A stretch of DNA of 64,000 bases from Prochlorococcus sp. AG-347-I21 (GTDB taxonomy: Bacteria; Cyanobacteriota; Cyanobacteriia; PCC-6307; Cyanobiaceae): contig QCBP01000009.1 in NCBI GenBank assembly GCA_003279055.1, positions 1-64,000 on the forward strand, written 5' to 3'. The notes beneath the pieces were generated by a model. That model did no database searches. It was not told the DNA's origin and saw only the letters and a program-made list of their open reading frames with translations. Numbering within the stretch: position 1 is the stretch's first letter; every line of letters starts with the position of its first letter. Made by a program: the position numbers and the translations under genes. Of the stretch, positions 54,305 to 60,480 are shown piece by piece.

Positions 54305-55363
54305 TCAAAAAGAATTAGTACGAACTTTAAATTTCCAAACATTTACTACACCTTTTGCGTTAACTGCAGCTAGTGCACAATCATCAGGTCTCCACGAAAG
54401 TGCACCCACTAAATCGCCTGCGAATGCAGCCCCAACTGGGTCACCATTACCGTCTTTTTTTAGAAAACTTGCGACAACAGAACCATCTCTAGATCCGGAA
54501 GCTACAAGCATGCCTTTATTTGAAAAGGCTAGGCTAGAAATAGGTTCGGTATGGTGCCATAGCTCTCCCGGCATAGTTCCCTCGGGACCGTCACCTATAA
54601 AGCTCCACACTGTAATTCTTTCACTGCCACTAGTTGCTAATAATTTTCCACTATCGTCAAAAGAAAGGTGACTAGGTTTTCCTGGGTATCCTGTCATTTC
54701 AGCATCCATTCCAGTTGATCTTCTCCAAAAATGAACTGAATTGTCTTGACTCCCGCAAGCGACTATATCACCATCAGGACTTAATTCCATTGAGACTAAT
54801 GATCCTTGCCACTCGAGCTTTTGATTCGTTTTATTATTTACTATGTCAAAGAATGTTACTCTCCCGTAGCAGGCTGTAGCTAGCTCATTATTATTTGACC
54901 ATTTTATTGCACTCACTGTGCTTGGATGATCATCTGATACCCATTTTTCTTCACCAATTTCATTAAAAACATATACTTTTTTTGAAGAAGCTGCTGCAAG
55001 AAATAAGCCATCATTTGACCACTTAAGATGCTCTACCCAAGCCTTGCCAAGATCGAGAGTTTTAATTACTTTACCTTCGTGACAATTATATATTTGAATA
55101 TTTCCATCTTGACCGGAAGTTGCAAAAATCTCTCCTTCTGGATGAATGGACATTGCTAATAGACCACCAGAGTGAGTATTTTCTTTTTTCCAAATAATTT
55201 TCCCAGTATCTCCTTCAAAGGCAAAAATACCTCCTGCTACATCCCCAACAATGAATAACTTTCCTTTAGTAGCCCAACCACAAACTATGGCATAATCATT
55301 AACTTCAGCTGTCCATCCCTCGTGGAACATGCCTCTTGGGCTAAATGATTCTATATCAGGCAT
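54305..55363 (-). CDS. WD40-repeat beta-propeller protein
   Basis: 352 residues. About seven WD40-like blades, e.g. LAMSIHPEGEIFATSGQDGN, VSMELSPDGDIVACGSQDNS, LSFDDSGKLLATSGSERITV and LAFSNKGMLVASGSRDGSV. It predicts one closed propeller and no catalytic domain, so it is probably a protein-interaction scaffold in the cytosol. The gene overlaps the end of the CobW GTPase gene by 13 nt, which indicates translational coupling and a shared task, presumably in the zinc locus. WD40 proteins are rare in such small genomes. Confidence 0.9.
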   Translation of the reverse strand: MPDIESFSPRGMFHEGWTAEVNDYAIVCGWATKGKLFIVGDVAGGIFAFEGDTGKIIWKKENTHSGGLLAMSIHPEGEIFATSGQDGNIQIYNCHEGKVIKTLDLGKAWVEHLKWSNDGLFLAAASSKKVYVFNEIGEEKWVSDDHPSTVSAIKWSNNNELATACYGRVTFFDIVNNKTNQKLEWQGSLVSMELSPDGDIVACGSQDNSVHFWRRSTGMDAEMTGYPGKPSHLSFDDSGKLLATSGSERITVWSFIGDGPEGTMPGELWHHTEPISSLAFSNKGMLVASGSRDGSVVASFLKKDGNGDPVGAAFAGDLVGALSWRPDDCALAAVNAKGVVNVWKFKVRTNSF

Positions 55364-56700
55364 TTATCAAAACCTTCTTTCATCTCTTTCTCGTCCAAAT
55401 TTCTACCTATAAAAACAAGTTGGTTTCTACGAGGTTCGTTACCCCATTCCTTATCAGGTTGCGCTGTAAATAACATATGTACTCCTTGGAAAACTATTCT
55501 CTGTGGGTTGCCTGAGTAGCTAATGAAACCTTTAGTTCTAAATATATCCACCCCTTTTTCAGAAAGAAGTCTGCCCAACCAAGTATTAAGTTTTTCTGGA
55601 TCAACATCTCCAAATCGTTCAATTGCAATGGACGTTACTTCATCATCGTGCTCGTGCTCGGCTTGCCAGAACCTTTCAGTATTAAATGGAATCTCTTTAT
55701 TTTCCTCACTTTTAATGACTTTCATATTGAATTCTTCAGCAGTGTGCTGTGTAAACAAACCTATTTTTGTTGGTTTTTCTATGTTTAGGATGAAGGATTT
55801 ATTTCCTTTATCCTCCAATTTGAGATTTATATGTTCTCCATATGGAATAGTATTTCCAGGTTCTAAAGTATTAGCTTTTTCTGCATAAAGTCTTACGGAG
55901 GATTCAGCACCATCTTTTAGTTCCTCCTCATTCTCACCTTGGTTAACGAGGGCTACTAGGGACATTTCTGGATCGGGTCCTTCTTCTAGCATTAATTCAT
56001 ATTTACCTGCATCAAGATCGTAAACACCTGTCCATTCAAAAGGATATTCTGGTTCAAGAAATGTTGGTCTGCGTTTAAGGATCTGATCAAGATCAAATGC
56101 ACTTAGATTTAAGACTGTTTCAATGGGTACTTTGGCATTCTCGGCTCTAATAATTCGAGTCATTCGGTTCATATCTCTCAATCTCGATTCAAGAGTATCT
56201 AGTGCATCATCAGAGACTAAATCGGTTTTATTAAGGACAAGAACATCTGCAAATGCCACTTGTTCTGAACTTTCATCACTCCTACCTAGTTGTTGATCAA
56301 TATGAGCAGCATCAACTAAAGTTACAATTCCATCAAGAGTAAATTCAGAACTAATTTCTTCATCCATGAAAAATGTCTGCGCGACTGGCCCAGGATCTGC
56401 TAATCCGGTCGTTTCTACTAAAACATAGTCAAACTTATCTCTTCTTTTCATAAGGTTGCCAAGGACTCTTATTAAATCACCGCGAACAGTACAACAAATG
56501 CACCCGTTTGACATCTCAAACACTTCTTCATCGGCATTAATTACGAGCCCTTGATCTATCCCTACTTCACCGTATTCATTCTCAATTACGGCTATTCTTT
56601 TCCCGTGCTCTTCACTTAGTATTCTATTAAGTAAAGTAGTTTTCCCTGAACCTAGAAATCCAGTGAGAATAGTAACTGGAACTTTATCTTTGATGCTCAT
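55351..56700 (-). CDS. CobW/COG0523 family metal-chaperone GTPase with inserted domain
   Basis: 449 residues; simple COG0523 proteins are about 320-350. G domain: Walker A GFLGSGKTTLLN, the metal-binding NGCICCTVRGDL (CxCC), VETTGLADPGP, and NKTD at 157-160. Between G domain and CobW_C domain lies an insert, residues 221-324, starting FEWTGVYDL and ending FTQHTAEEF, which aligns with a segment of the neighbouring ZnuA. A His/Asp/Glu run (EHEHDDE) follows, then the C-terminal domain with IFRTKGFISYSG. COG0523 members under Zur deliver zinc to client enzymes. Its order after znuA and before the WD40 gene supports that role. Confidence 0.93.
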   Translation of the reverse strand: MSIKDKVPVTILTGFLGSGKTTLLNRILSEEHGKRIAVIENEYGEVGIDQGLVINADEEVFEMSNGCICCTVRGDLIRVLGNLMKRRDKFDYVLVETTGLADPGPVAQTFFMDEEISSEFTLDGIVTLVDAAHIDQQLGRSDESSEQVAFADVLVLNKTDLVSDDALDTLESRLRDMNRMTRIIRAENAKVPIETVLNLSAFDLDQILKRRPTFLEPEYPFEWTGVYDLDAGKYELMLEEGPDPEMSLVALVNQGENEEELKDGAESSVRLYAEKANTLEPGNTIPYGEHINLKLEDKGNKSFILNIEKPTKIGLFTQHTAEEFNMKVIKSEENKEIPFNTERFWQAEHEHDDEVTSIAIERFGDVDPEKLNTWLGRLLSEKGVDIFRTKGFISYSGNPQRIVFQGVHMLFTAQPDKEWGNEPRRNQLVFIGRNLDEKEMKEGFDKCLI

Positions 56701-56777
56701 TTAATGATTTTTACCAAATAAACAATAGCTTAATAATAGTAATAATAAGAAATGAAAACCGTTTTTATTAGAAAAAT

Positions 56778-58319
56778 TTAATCTGAAAGTTTGTACCATT
56801 CAGACTCAAGATTGGAGCCAGATTCTTTATCACAGCTTCCACCTAATGAATCAACAATTGTACAAGTGTTGTGTACGGCTACTGAAACCGTATTACCATC
56901 CATCATCAATCCATCAACGAATATTTGATTAGAAGCTAAAGGAACTGAACTTTGTCTACTTAAGTTCCTTAATAACTTAGATGCTGGAATTTGTTCAGGA
57001 AATATTGCCTGAACACTCTCTTCATCTAACATTTTTAAAGTAGAACTTATGTTGTCTGGCCTTAAGCTTGAGGAGTCTCCAAGAAAGTCAAGTAAACTAA
57101 TGGTTTCAAAACCAAATGCATCCCCGTAGTATTCCATTGCTTTGTGTTTAGAGACAATTACTCTGTTTTCCTCAGGAATAGAGCTTACTTGTTCGACGAT
57201 CCAACTATCTAAGCCTTCTAAGAGAGAATCAGCTTTTTCGAATCTTTCATTAATTAGTTTTCTGTCACCTCTATTAAAAACTGAAATATCTTTCTTTAAA
57301 CTTTTGCTTATAAGATCTCCCATCTTTATGATGTTATGTGGATCATGCCATACATGTGGATCTAGACCTCCATGGTCATGATGGTGATGCCCCTCTCCTT
57401 CGTCTGGAACTTGTGCTATTGGTTCTACATCACTATTTGAAACGTCTTTAAAAAAGTGTTGAGTTGCTTCAAACTCAAAAGGCATGTGTTCAGTAAAAAA
57501 TATATATTCTCCATCTTCTTTGATATCCACGTTAAAAACAGTACTTTCTTTTCTTTGATCAAAGTTAAGAACAAAAGCTTTATTACTTGCTATCAAAGTT
57601 CCATCATTTTTTCTGCTTATTGAGTCTTTAGATCCTAATAATTCTTTGGCTAAATCTTCAGACCCTTCTATGTCATTAGATTTGAGAATCACCATCTTCA
57701 TTGCAGGATCTGCATATTCGCCATCGACTTTTTCAAATGACCATTTGTATGAACCCTTAGAAAGCTGGAATTTACCTGCCCATTCGAAAGCACCCTCGGC
57801 ATGATCATCATGTCCACCATGGTCTGAATGATCATCATGACCTCCGTGATCAGAATGATCATCTACCTTAGCTGAATGTTCAGCATGATCGTCATGTCCG
57901 CCATGGTCTGAGTGGTCATCGTGGCCTTCATGATCAGAATGATCATCTACGTCTATTGCACTAACACCTACAACAACAGTATTCTTTTTACTTTCCCAAT
58001 TTCTCATACTTGGAGTCATTTCTTTGCCAAGAGTGAATACTTTGTCTGCGCTATTTAGTAATTGAGCTTGTCTTGGATTGATCTTTAAGTCATGAACATC
58101 CTGTTTTCTATCTACTAAGCATGTAACTTCGTCAGATGGTAACGCAATTGATTTAACTAAATCACAAACTAGTGGTTCTACTGCTACGTATGACTTCCCT
58201 TTAGCCATTACATCCTGCCCAAAACCAGAAAATATAATCGTTCCAGCGATTACGGAATTTTTAATAATTGACTTACTCGAACCTTTTTTATTTGTTAAAA
58301 GTCTTTTAAAAATTGACAT
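56778..58319 (-). CDS. znuA: Zinc ABC transporter substrate-binding protein ZnuA with inserted domain and His-rich linker
   Basis: 513 residues, against about 310 in E. coli. An N-terminal hydrophobic leader (about 18-38, ending VMAKG) is followed by the cluster A-I metal-binding protein: LVDRKQDVHDLKI with the first His, LDPHVWHDPHNIIKMG with the second, VSKHKAMEYYG with the third, and a late FPEQIPASKLL with Glu. The His-rich loop is expanded (residues 125-174) into repeated DDHSDHGGH units. An inserted domain of about 105 residues (178-283) follows, then a second HHHHDHGG patch. It captures periplasmic zinc for ZnuB/ZnuC. Divergent from znuC across a Zur-box-like site. Confidence 0.94.
   Translation of the reverse strand: MSIFKRLLTNKKGSSKSIIKNSVIAGTIIFSGFGQDVMAKGKSYVAVEPLVCDLVKSIALPSDEVTCLVDRKQDVHDLKINPRQAQLLNSADKVFTLGKEMTPSMRNWESKKNTVVVGVSAIDVDDHSDHEGHDDHSDHGGHDDHAEHSAKVDDHSDHGGHDDHSDHGGHDDHAEGAFEWAGKFQLSKGSYKWSFEKVDGEYADPAMKMVILKSNDIEGSEDLAKELLGSKDSISRKNDGTLIASNKAFVLNFDQRKESTVFNVDIKEDGEYIFFTEHMPFEFEATQHFFKDVSNSDVEPIAQVPDEGEGHHHHDHGGLDPHVWHDPHNIIKMGDLISKSLKKDISVFNRGDRKLINERFEKADSLLEGLDSWIVEQVSSIPEENRVIVSKHKAMEYYGDAFGFETISLLDFLGDSSSLRPDNISSTLKMLDEESVQAIFPEQIPASKLLRNLSRQSSVPLASNQIFVDGLMMDGNTVSVAVHNTCTIVDSLGGSCDKESGSNLESEWYKLSD
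57795..57947 (-). repeat. Coding tandem repeat in the ZnuA His-rich loop
   Basis: The segment encodes two successive copies of a unit of about 25 residues, each made of DDHSDHxGH/DDHSDHGGH/DDHAE subunits. It repeats at DNA level on the plus strand as variants of tcatgaccnccgtgatc-like words. Such in-frame repeats can expand or contract by slippage. It offers about 17 His plus many Asp for weak zinc binding. Confidence 0.9.
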
Positions 58320-58344
58320 AAAAAAATTATTAAATACTTAAAAA

Positions 58345-58359
58345 TGATAATCATTTTCA
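58345..58359. promoter_or_regulatory. Zur-box-like palindrome between znuA and znuC
   Basis: TGATAATCATTTTCA is a 7-1-7 inverted repeat with one mismatch (TGATAAT / ATTTTCA; the perfect partner would be ATTATCA). It matches the general TGATAATnATTATCA pattern of Zur/Fur-type operators. It lies 26 nt upstream of the znuA start and 100 nt upstream of znuC, so it could control both directions. zur is encoded 0.9 kb away. Fur binding is the alternative. Confidence 0.7.
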
Positions 58360-58458: not shown

Positions 58459-59229
58459 ATGGCTACTTTAGTCGCTGAAAATTTAACATTTGCATACACA
58501 GAAAAAAGTAAGCCAGCTTTAAATAAGGTATCGGTTGAGATTAAACCTGGAACTCTAACAGCGCTAGTAGGTCCAAATGGTGCCGGTAAATCCACTCTTT
58601 TGAGGATATTGCAAGGACAAAATACTCCAGATAAAGGCGAAATAAAAATTGATGGTGAAAATTTATATAAATCTAGAGCTCTAGTGGCACTTATGCCTCA
58701 AAGAAGTTCTATGAATTGGAAGTTTCCCATTACAGTTGAAAAATTGGTATCTCTTGGTCAAATAAAGTATTCAAAATCAAGAAGTAATAACCCCTTTCAA
58801 ATCAAGGCTCTTCTAGAATATCCTAATTCTTGGATTAATAAATGTTGTGAATTAGAAGCGACAATGCAAAGAGTAGGAATTGCTAATTTGGCTAATAGAA
58901 GACTCGATTCTCTTTCAGGAGGACAGCAACAAAGAGCTCTATTAGCAAAAACTCTTATGTCCCCTGCAAAAATATTTCTTCTGGATGAACCTTGTGCGGC
59001 ATTGGATCCCCCCGCAAAAGAGGACTTCCTGAAAATTGTTCGTCAACTCGCAGATGCGGGACTTTCTTTGCTAGTAAGTAGCCATGATTGGGGCGAGTCT
59101 CTAAATAACTACGATCAAGTAATCGTTCTTGATAAAAGTGTTTTAGCAGTTGGTAGTCCTGATCAAATAAAAGATAAATTAGATGCTATAAACATAAGCT
59201 CTATAAGGGAAAATAATTTCTGTGATTAG
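58459..59229 (+). CDS. znuC: Zinc ABC transporter ATP-binding protein ZnuC
   Basis: 256 residues. Walker A VGPNGAGKSTLLRILQG, Q-loop in ALMPQRSSMNW, ABC signature DSLSGGQQQRALLAKTLM, Walker B IFLLDEPCAALDPP, and the H-loop in LLVSSHDWGE are complete. It is of the metal-type (cluster with ZnuA/ZnuB) and energises zinc uptake. ATG start. Divergent from znuA. The usual znuCB pairing is interrupted by zur on the opposite strand before znuB. Confidence 0.94.
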   Translation: MATLVAENLTFAYTEKSKPALNKVSVEIKPGTLTALVGPNGAGKSTLLRILQGQNTPDKGEIKIDGENLYKSRALVALMPQRSSMNWKFPITVEKLVSLGQIKYSKSRSNNPFQIKALLEYPNSWINKCCELEATMQRVGIANLANRRLDSLSGGQQQRALLAKTLMSPAKIFLLDEPCAALDPPAKEDFLKIVRQLADAGLSLLVSSHDWGESLNNYDQVIVLDKSVLAVGSPDQIKDKLDAINISSIRENNFCD

Positions 59230-59242
59230 AAAATGTTCCTTA

Positions 59243-59677
59243 TTAATTTTGAGCTTGATAACAGTTTTGGCAAAGTCCGAAATATTCGAGTGTATGAAAC
59301 AAAAGTTGAAACTTTCTTGGATTTTTTTTAGGGGCATGAATATCTTTAACAGGACAACCTTCCATTTTCGACGTCTCTCCGCATTGAACGCAGGTCAAAT
59401 GATGAATGTCTCTATCTACGGGAGTGTAAAGAACCTCTCCTGTTGGGAGATGTCTAGAACGAATTAAACCATGCTTTATAAGAACTTGAAGATTCCTGTA
59501 AACAGTTGTCAGTCCCATAACCTTTCCGCTTTCAATCAATTGTCTATGCAACTCTTGACCGCTCAGTTCATCCTCGCATTTATTAAGTTCTTCAAGAAGT
59601 TGTTCTTGTCTTTTGGTAATGTCAGACTTAGTTACCATTGTTTTCAAAATCTTTTTTTGCTTCGTATTTTTGATCAT
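59243..59677 (-). CDS. zur: Fur-family zinc uptake regulator Zur
   Basis: 144 residues from the ATG at 59677. An internal ATG at 59638 (MVTKSDITKRQEQLLEELN) would give 131 residues and fits the family start better. Winged helix: GQELHRQLIESGKVMGLTTVYRNLQVLIKHGLI. Dimer domain with HHLTCVQCGETSKMEGCP and the C-terminal GLCQNCYQ, i.e. two CxxC pairs that make the structural zinc site. The Zur identity (rather than Fur or PerR) rests on the location between znuC and znuB. Regulatory zinc ligands (His/Asp) are present in the DRDIHH segment. Confidence 0.9.
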   Translation of the reverse strand: MIKNTKQKKILKTMVTKSDITKRQEQLLEELNKCEDELSGQELHRQLIESGKVMGLTTVYRNLQVLIKHGLIRSRHLPTGEVLYTPVDRDIHHLTCVQCGETSKMEGCPVKDIHAPKKNPRKFQLLFHTLEYFGLCQNCYQAQN

Positions 59678-59694: not shown

Positions 59695-60480
59695 ATGTCT
59701 TTTATTAATAACAACTGGTGGCTGGTTCCATTAATAATAACTATATTCTCTGGGATTTTATGCCCAGCTATGGGAACTGTATTAATCACTCATAAGAGAT
59801 TATTACAAGTTAATTTAATCTCTCATTGTGTGTTGCCTGGACTTGCTCTCGCATTAGCGCTTGGAATTCACCCCTCAATTGGTGGTGTTATAAGTGGTCT
59901 TCTGGGCTCAGTAATTGCGGAAAGTTTAACTAATAGAAAAAGTGAAAATTATGAAGCAGTTATGAATACTATTCTCGCTGGAATGCTTGGATTTGGGGTC
60001 CTTATAATCCCTTTACTCGGAATAAGGATTGATTTGGAGGCAGTATTATTTGGCGATTTATTGACAGCAAATTTTGGAGATTTACTTAGAACAATAATTG
60101 CTTTTTTAGTATTTATACTTTTAATGACTTTTGGATATGAAAAGGTTGTTTATGTGGGATTGGATCCAGAAGGTGCATCCGCGAGCGGTATAAACGTTTC
60201 TTTATTAAATCTCGCTTTGAGTTTTACGACGGCATTAGTAATTGTTAGTTCAATGTCAGCAGTGGGAGTGATTCTTGTAATTGCTCTTCTTTCTACGCCA
60301 ACTTTGTTAGGGCTAAATAAGGCTCATAGTTTAAGAATTGCAATGATGAGGTCTTCATTTTTTGGATTATGCATTTCACTTCTTGGATTTATTCTTTCTA
60401 TAGTCTTTAATCTTTCGCCCGGGCCTGCAATTAGTGTTATTTGTGTTGCATCTCTTTTAATTCCTAAGCTTCGCAAATAG
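59695..60480 (+). CDS. znuB: Zinc ABC transporter permease ZnuB
   Basis: 261 residues with about eight predicted membrane helices of the ABC-3 family. LITHKRLLQVNLISHCVLPGLALAL opens the family signature and YVGLDPEGASASGINVSLLN contains the cytosolic coupling region. Forms the zinc channel with ZnuC and ZnuA. ATG at 59695, only 17 nt from the first zur start (56 nt if zur starts at 59638), so its promoter must lie in or near the zur 5' end. Short palindrome CGAATCTTTCG at 59680-59690. Confidence 0.93.
   Translation: MSFINNNWWLVPLIITIFSGILCPAMGTVLITHKRLLQVNLISHCVLPGLALALALGIHPSIGGVISGLLGSVIAESLTNRKSENYEAVMNTILAGMLGFGVLIIPLLGIRIDLEAVLFGDLLTANFGDLLRTIIAFLVFILLMTFGYEKVVYVGLDPEGASASGINVSLLNLALSFTTALVIVSSMSAVGVILVIALLSTPTLLGLNKAHSLRIAMMRSSFFGLCISLLGFILSIVFNLSPGPAISVICVASLLIPKLRK

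Follow-up and report, generated by a model that had tools for sequence, protein, structure and literature searches.

A predicted beta-sandwich domain shared by the zinc receptor ZnuA and the neighboring CobW GTPase of Prochlorococcus

Does the zinc receptor of an ocean picocyanobacterium share a domain with the GTPase encoded next to it and, if so, what could one domain contribute to two proteins on opposite sides of the membrane? The question is raised by a stretch of 64,000 nucleotides (hereinafter, the window: assembly GCA_003279055.1, contig QCBP01000009.1, positions 1 to 64,000 of the forward strand) from the 1.56 Mb genome of Prochlorococcus sp. AG-347-I21. In this window, the gene for ZnuA, apparently an extracytoplasmic protein judging by its family and a signal-peptide-like N-terminus seen by eye, is adjacent to the gene for a cytosolic GTPase of the COG0523/CobW family in which the GTPase domain, the CobW_C domain and the CxCC motif (GCICC) are all present. 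Each of the two proteins carries a member of a single mobile domain family that has no name as yet (hereinafter, the FEWxG domain, after its initial motif) and consists of a predicted beta sandwich followed by a histidine cluster. The corresponding features are as follows (aa, amino acids).

56778..58319, minus strand: znuA, for a cluster A-I zinc substrate-binding protein of 513 aa that has a His-rich loop (PF01297, 141.9 bits against a cut-off of 29)
57465..57797, minus strand: inserted FEWxG domain of ZnuA, residues 175-285, with invariant E179, G182, D204, H278 and E282
57381..57464, minus strand: continuation of the shared module behind the ZnuA domain, residues 286-313, reaching into the HHHHDH cluster, according to the profile alignment
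55351..56700, minus strand: cobW (COG0523/CobW GTPase), 449 aa, with the metal motif NGCICCTVR (PF02492 and PF07683)
55723..56049, minus strand: FEWxG insert of CobW (residues 218-326), located between the GTPase and CobW_C domains, with invariant E222, G225, D243, H319 and E323
55648..55722, minus strand: continuation of the shared module behind the CobW domain, residues 327-351, up to the HEH(DD) cluster, according to the profile alignment

The original prediction, made from the letters of the window, held that the two proteins share an inserted segment of about 105 residues. BLASTP aligns CobW with ZnuA at E = 3e-5 (1.1e-4 with composition correction), with 28% identity over 113 columns, and the local alignment score of 75 compares with 28.8 +/- 5.0 in 5000 shuffles, the largest of which scored 59. 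Profile-profile alignment, suggested with the prediction as a check, yielded an hhalign probability of 99.0 and E = 7e-18 for separately built profiles (30 ZnuA-type versus 43 CobW-type rows); for longer and more varied rows (48 CobW and 17 extracytoplasmic), in which 38 residues behind the domain were added, the E value was 7.5e-34 over 132 columns. By these sequence comparisons, residues 218-326 of CobW and 175-285 of ZnuA are homologous, and the relationship is stronger than first noted. The FEW motifs begin at residues 221 (CobW) and 178 (ZnuA), exactly as proposed, and the count of identities in the first block is corrected from 13 to 14 of the 31 aligned positions. The shared segment is real, but the boundary proposed for it was approximately 27-30 residues short because the shared part reaches a His-rich cluster in both proteins (around residue 351 in CobW and 313 in ZnuA). 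The claim that the segment is an insertion is borne out in three ways: the Pfam matches for ZnuA are split around the FEWxG domain, orthologous ZnuAs without this domain occur in the same genus, and two other COG0523 genes of this genome have open frames of 355 and 357 aa.

Across 67 representative rows from all hosts, E, G, D, H and E are the only invariant columns (67/67), namely, E222, G225, D243, H319 and E323 of CobW, which correspond to E179, G182, D204, H278 and E282 of ZnuA; identity between CobW copies and extracytoplasmic ones averages 0.28. The 67 rows include 43 obtained by 85% clustering of 140 copies from the first 82 loci and 24 picked from later loci, with partial copies at contig ends excluded. 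The histidine that had been put forward as a candidate ligand (H319/H278) is thus present in 67 of the 67 rows, and residues of the ligand type occupy four of the five invariant columns (hypergeometric p = 0.011, computed after the fact). The AlphaFold2 models built from two separate alignments have mean predicted local distance difference test scores of 83.6 and 94.8 and predicted template modeling scores of 0.77 and 0.86, and display the same order of elements, that is, three strands, a helix and then more short and long strands. This strand order would bring the invariant residues to one end of the sandwich. Comparison of predicted structures had also been suggested as a check, and the separate models agree in the element order and the nearest folds, the features on which they were compared. 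Chance or convergent similarity of low-complexity inserts, to which a pairwise identity of merely 27-28% could point, is refuted here by the profile E values of 7e-18 and 7.5e-34, the five positions invariant in 67/67 rows and the strand order that is alike in both models.

What kind of domain is this? With Foldseek, neither model has a match at E < 0.001. Among the rows listed by a second structural aligner, the top one for both is the C-terminal part of SEC14-like proteins (Z of 4.7 and 6.2), which we take to be a GOLD domain, and CBM35, along with other carbohydrate modules, is among the weak structural neighbors of both models; ephrin receptor and virus capsid jelly rolls are within 1 Z of the best, with many unrelated ties. 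The GOLD and CBM35 folds are among the best structural neighbors of both models, but these are weak likenesses. The models describe the FEWxG domain as a jelly-roll-like beta sandwich of approximately 110 residues with one helix, and nothing more specific. The carbohydrate modules among these neighbors could point to a jelly roll of the carbohydrate-binding module (CBM) type, structural or binding sugars or the cell wall, with a structural calcium at most and unrelated to zinc. We consider this unlikely given that the named hosts are metal proteins and occupy both compartments, that no sugar polymer is an obvious ligand for a GTPase in the cytosol, and that an invariant histidine is unusual for a calcium site.

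In agreement with the original remark that the domain could not be named, no Pfam or NCBIfam family matches above its cut-off over the insert (the best Pfam match is at the chance level, E = 0.059), and a search of PDB sequences with the domain retrieved nothing related (best E of 6.3 and 0.36). ZinT is absent among the Pfam matches at E up to 1, and the NCBIfam AdcA family matches residues 307-407 of ZnuA only, at 37.8 bits against a cut-off of 700. The NCBIfam zinc-uptake family ZrgA matches residues 86-179 of ZnuA, before the insert (E = 1e-6, 28.6 bits against a cut-off of 185); we took this match as His-rich similarity and rejected it. No description of the domain was found in the open-access literature, a search that leaves aside subscription papers, supplementary files, InterPro and CDD, nor was the insert found for algal ZNG3 in sections of PMC13368412.

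The phylogenetic tree of the 67 rows separates the 49 CobW copies from the 18 extracytoplasmic copies, with support of 91/88. A forced clade of the Prochlorococcus ZnuA and CobW copies, a group that was named after the tree had been seen, reduces the log likelihood by 24.8 (approximately unbiased test, AU, p = 0.064). Given the split between CobW and extracytoplasmic copies and the cost of the forced clade, the domains of the two neighbors most likely represent distinct branches of the family that separated long ago. Recent copying between the neighboring genes, such that the insert of ZnuA would be a duplicate of that of CobW, is compatible with their adjacency and with a forced clade that stays above the 0.05 level (AU p = 0.064 at a log likelihood 24.8 lower). 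We nevertheless regard it as disfavored and quite improbable, given that the free tree separates all 49 CobW rows from all 18 extracytoplasmic ones (91/88), in a domain tree of 110 columns with long branches and compositional oddities in 4 rows.

How far does the family extend beyond this pair? The genome of the window has exactly two copies of the domain, in ZnuA and CobW, and the window CobW is 94-98% identical to the CobW proteins of many Prochlorococcus genomes. The domain is present in CobW in all 80 loci fetched across several phyla (the best 80 of 587 relatives of the window CobW). It is uncommon in phylum samples, each of which includes its own starting genome: 31 of 386 genomes in the window's phylum, 3 of 398 in the G386 sample (one a weak partial match, E = 0.004, not counted), 12 of 201 in the G388 sample, 12 of 199 in the G389 sample, 17 of 282 in the G387 sample (one a broken CobW) and 1 of 198 in the G390 sample, this one being the starting genome itself; alignment A1 was used for the first four samples, and A4 for G387 and G390. 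The hosts at the best phylum-sample loci are all CobW (30 loci from the window's phylum, 1 from G386, 11 from G388, 11 from G389, 16 from G387 and 11 from a further search). The ZnuA matches of the window-phylum sample are, apart from fragments and later-fetched regions, among the rows without a fetched locus, and outside picocyanobacteria, every classified host in the phylum samples is CobW. In the G387 sample, L241:1132-1959 encodes a CobW that is missing most of its GTPase part along with the first half of the FEWxG domain and has Arg in place of the invariant His; it is a decaying copy. There was no match to the domain in phages, and none of the 35 pattern matches in viral contigs is a relative.

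Plasmids hold a broader assortment of hosts. The domain was found in 11 of 72,556 plasmid records, and the hosts in 10 of these were examined. The hosts are ZnuA-type proteins in three haloarchaea; small proteins in three haloarchaea that have His-rich flanks and, by eye, N-termini resembling those of lipoproteins, one being encoded immediately after a urease operon; three cobW genes or fragments of such genes that are followed by WD40 matches; and an Alicyclobacillus membrane protein (L128:4788-5696) that carries the domain in a His-rich loop and is encoded in a cluster with cation transporters and metal-type regulators. Judging by its motif, inspected by eye, the latter looks like a NicO/UreH-type transporter, with no Pfam match. 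The haloarchaeal domain-bearing ZnuA genes (L127, L161 and L164) are located beside two genes for GTP-binding (CobW-type) proteins as well as genes for a cobalt-factor methyltransferase and an iron-sulfur scaffold. L164 also has cobalamin-transport genes close by, and the metal at these three loci may be cobalt. The plasmid record of Haloarcula halophila (L126) ends within a second copy of the L161 operon (with the same GTP-binding protein accessions), and its ZnuA frame is broken.

The FEWxG domain, accordingly found in several hosts, is not specific to the ZnuA-CobW pair. The suggestion that ZnuA and CobW dock on a shared partner or hand zinc over to each other did not survive: one protein is outside and the other inside the cell, so that a direct exchange is unlikely, and Prochlorococcus is where all observed cases of the pairing come from, the one CobW tested beside a haloarchaeal domain-bearing ZnuA (at two loci) being devoid of the domain.

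Within ZnuA, the number of domains varies. Among the 80 CobW loci, 52 have an orthologous ZnuA, with one copy of the domain in 40, two in 9 and none in 3, one of the last being a fragment at a contig end; for CobW, exactly one copy is seen. The 49 domain-bearing ZnuA open reading frames (ORFs) are all in Prochlorococcus-type loci, and none is in the other CobW loci. The insert-less ZnuA has just the His-rich loop at the corresponding position, and in one genome of the window's genus (G294; L220 and L221), an insert-less ZnuA in the znu-cobW operon coexists with a separate domain-bearing ZnuA encoded elsewhere. In 48 distinct cyanobacterial ZnuA copies, His accounts for a mean fraction of 0.199 and 0.190 of the 40 residues that flank the domain on each side. 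Replacement of histidines by the domain was considered and rejected as a general trade-off: the His count of the loop outside the domain does not fall between zero- and one-copy ZnuAs, and therefore the domain does not simply replace His; the count drops only in two-copy ZnuA (18.2 with no domain, n = 5; 19.5 with one, n = 42; 11.9 with two, n = 8). This count covers the 55 ORFs with both anchor motifs, so that some orthologs are missing (for example, the two-copy L043), and excludes L217 due to unknown bases. The ZnuA frame of L217 (L217:3227-5845), of 873 aa, contains two near-identical stretches and a run of unknown bases and is probably an assembly artifact.

The CobW copy has a constant companion of another kind, a gene for a WD40 protein:

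54305..55363, minus strand: WD40 protein gene, 352 aa (PF00400), overlapping the end of cobW by 13 bases

A WD40 gene begins at the end of the insert-bearing cobW in 79 of the 80 loci; in the exception, it is on the other strand. In 16 genomes analyzed in detail, all 16 insert-bearing CobWs have a WD40 gene, compared to 1 of the 25 insert-less CxCC COG0523 genes with WD40 in range (1.5-2.5 kb), and this lone WD40 gene belongs to the adjoining insert-bearing CobW, directly behind which the insert-less gene lies. The 51 CobW-family matches in these genomes include the 16 insert-bearing and 25 insert-less CxCC genes, 4 that were fetched and have no clear CxCC and 6 unfetched; the WD40 count omits the last 10, among which L209 has the WD40 gene of the insert-bearing cluster of G391 in range. 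WD40 matches are also found near 15 of the 15 CxCC-bearing CobWs of the G387 sample and at all three plasmid CobW loci, and none was detected in the 8 haloarchaeal and Alicyclobacillus loci scanned. In six genomes (G026, G393, G390, G395 and G392, loci L210-L214, and G396), a second, insert-less COG0523 gene of the NGCICCTLR type is located within approximately 10 kb of the insert-bearing CobW-WD40 pair. The neighborhood of CobW, WD40 and znuABC is known as COG0523 subfamily 5, with Zur sites, from parts of Haas et al. 2009 (PMC2770081). The window CobW has the gene neighbors of this subfamily (WD40 and znu), which make it a candidate member. The likeness extends to the Zur sites; the difference is that the inserted domain and a relative of it in ZnuA go unmentioned in passages of the main text (PMC2770081), and no tie between this neighborhood and the insert was found in the open-access literature.

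These associations lend some weight to a protein-docking domain, with structural invariant residues, that would recruit the WD40 protein to CobW and another zinc protein or the permease to ZnuA: the WD40 gene is directly downstream of insert-bearing CobW in 79/80 loci, accompanies it in 16/16 cases in the detailed genomes, 15/15 in the G387 sample and 3/3 on plasmids, and is near 1/25 of the insert-less genes, there belonging to a neighbor. We give docking roughly one chance in four. The 8 haloarchaeal and Alicyclobacillus loci have no WD40 match, four of the five invariant residues are of the ligand type, and the association with WD40 may be plain subfamily inheritance; docking is, moreover, compatible with metal binding.

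Which metal would be involved? The surroundings of the two genes include the following features.

58459..59229, plus strand: znuC, ABC ATPase (PF00005)
59243..59677, minus strand: Fur-family regulator gene, candidate Zur (PF01475)
59695..60480, plus strand: znuB, ABC-3 permease (PF00950)
58341..58357, strand not assigned: Zur/Fur-type palindrome AAAATGATAATCATTTT, in the gap between znuA and znuC

On the minus strand, the order is znuA, cobW and the WD40 gene, with 77 bases between znuA and cobW; znuC and znuB are divergent from znuA, and the Fur-family gene is between them on the opposite strand. The palindrome is the single perfect match in the genome, with one more site at one mismatch; for the window alone, 0.54 matches with up to two mismatches are expected by chance. 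In the 47 orthologous regions, including that of the window, there are 38 perfect matches, 5 with one mismatch, 2 with two and 2 with three, that is, 45/47 at up to two mismatches, compared to 8 perfect matches (which may include the box itself), none with one or two and 13 with three mismatches among 235 random control stretches from the same loci. Because of the znu genes, the Fur-family gene and the conserved Zur-type box, the metal at this locus is likely to be zinc, and the zinc link proposed for the two proteins holds by context. In Synechococcus WH8102, a Zur box between the divergent znuA and znuC has been described and tested, as stated in parts of PMC9337993. According to a passage of PMC8786288, one picocyanobacterial ZnuA cluster is nearly absent from Prochlorococcus; the window ZnuA must be either outside this cluster or in genomes that the statement omits.

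Taken together with the invariant residues, the hosts lead us to favor, with some reservation, an accessory metal-binding beta-sandwich module that would help to concentrate or gate zinc. The named hosts, CobW and ZnuA, are metal proteins, and the remaining hosts are His-flanked; in ZnuA, the domain is inserted into the His-loop, with natural zero-, one- and two-copy orthologs. A single metal site at an edge of the sandwich would be built from the invariant Glu, Asp, His and Glu residues. In ZnuA, the domain inside the His-rich loop would help to capture zinc from sea water, in which it is very dilute, and to supply the binding cleft. Metal binding, the spatial grouping of these four residues and the recruiting and coupling roles are what we infer. 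Several observations weigh against metal binding. The p value for ligand-type residues (0.011) is modest and post hoc; the CobW copies are nearly His-free upstream (0.003) and have few His downstream (0.049); no metal gene is annotated near 2 of the 3 small haloarchaeal proteins; and the fold matches are weak, the best Z values of 4.7 and 6.2 being under the aligner's level for more than a common arrangement. Furthermore, the His count is no lower in one-copy than in zero-copy ZnuA alleles, and because same-operon ZnuA alleles without the domain exist, the domain is dispensable in the ZnuA of this operon.

Accessory domains on zinc receptors are already known; sharing of one across the membrane is unusual. 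The added domain of AdcA we take to be ZinT-like, and the FEWxG domain of ZnuA would act like this domain together with the His-loop of AdcA. In AdcA, the second domain and the His-loop jointly aid zinc recruitment under restriction, and loss of either alone has no significant effect on growth, according to sections of PMC7858048. Both are ZnuA-type receptors with an added metal-handling domain and a His-loop (PMC7858048, in the same sections), but the added part of AdcA is C-terminal, whereas, with sequence alone compared, the domain of the window ZnuA is inside the His-loop and has no ZinT match in Pfam. The Arabidopsis ZNG2 GTPases also have a metal-related stretch between the GTPase and C-terminal domains, with long His runs (PMC10642216, in part); their linker holds a His run, whereas the CobW linker here holds a predicted folded domain. 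The beta-propeller AztD gives zinc to the ZnuA-type receptor AztC, often with CobW genes nearby (parts of PMC6689063). AztD is periplasmic or at the cell surface, unlike the WD40 protein here, which is encoded with a cytosolic GTPase and in which no signal peptide is obvious by eye. The Anabaena protein ZepA is a cyanobacterial zinc-handling protein with a beta-sandwich domain, and its genes are near znuA and COG0523 genes in several phyla, according to sections of PMC10957091; the H-X2-9-H-F/Y-H site and the PEP-CTERM of ZepA described there are both absent, by eye, from the FEWxG domain.

More broadly, and tentatively, the FEWxG domain could serve bacteria and archaea as a general plug-in module of metal-trafficking proteins on both sides of the membrane, one that enters His-rich loops of zinc receptors and transporters outside and, inside, defines a cytosolic CobW-WD40 zinc-delivery machine with a GTPase gated by the Glu-Asp-His-Glu site. 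To our knowledge, no client of a COG0523 GTPase has been established for most bacteria, and it is an open question how picocyanobacteria of the ocean gather zinc that is present at very low concentrations (see also PMC9337993). The presence of one domain family both in the protein that first catches zinc and in a GTPase that is thought to deliver it provides a testable candidate metal site, along with natural ZnuA alleles that have zero, one and two copies and a conserved WD40 partner gene of the GTPase.

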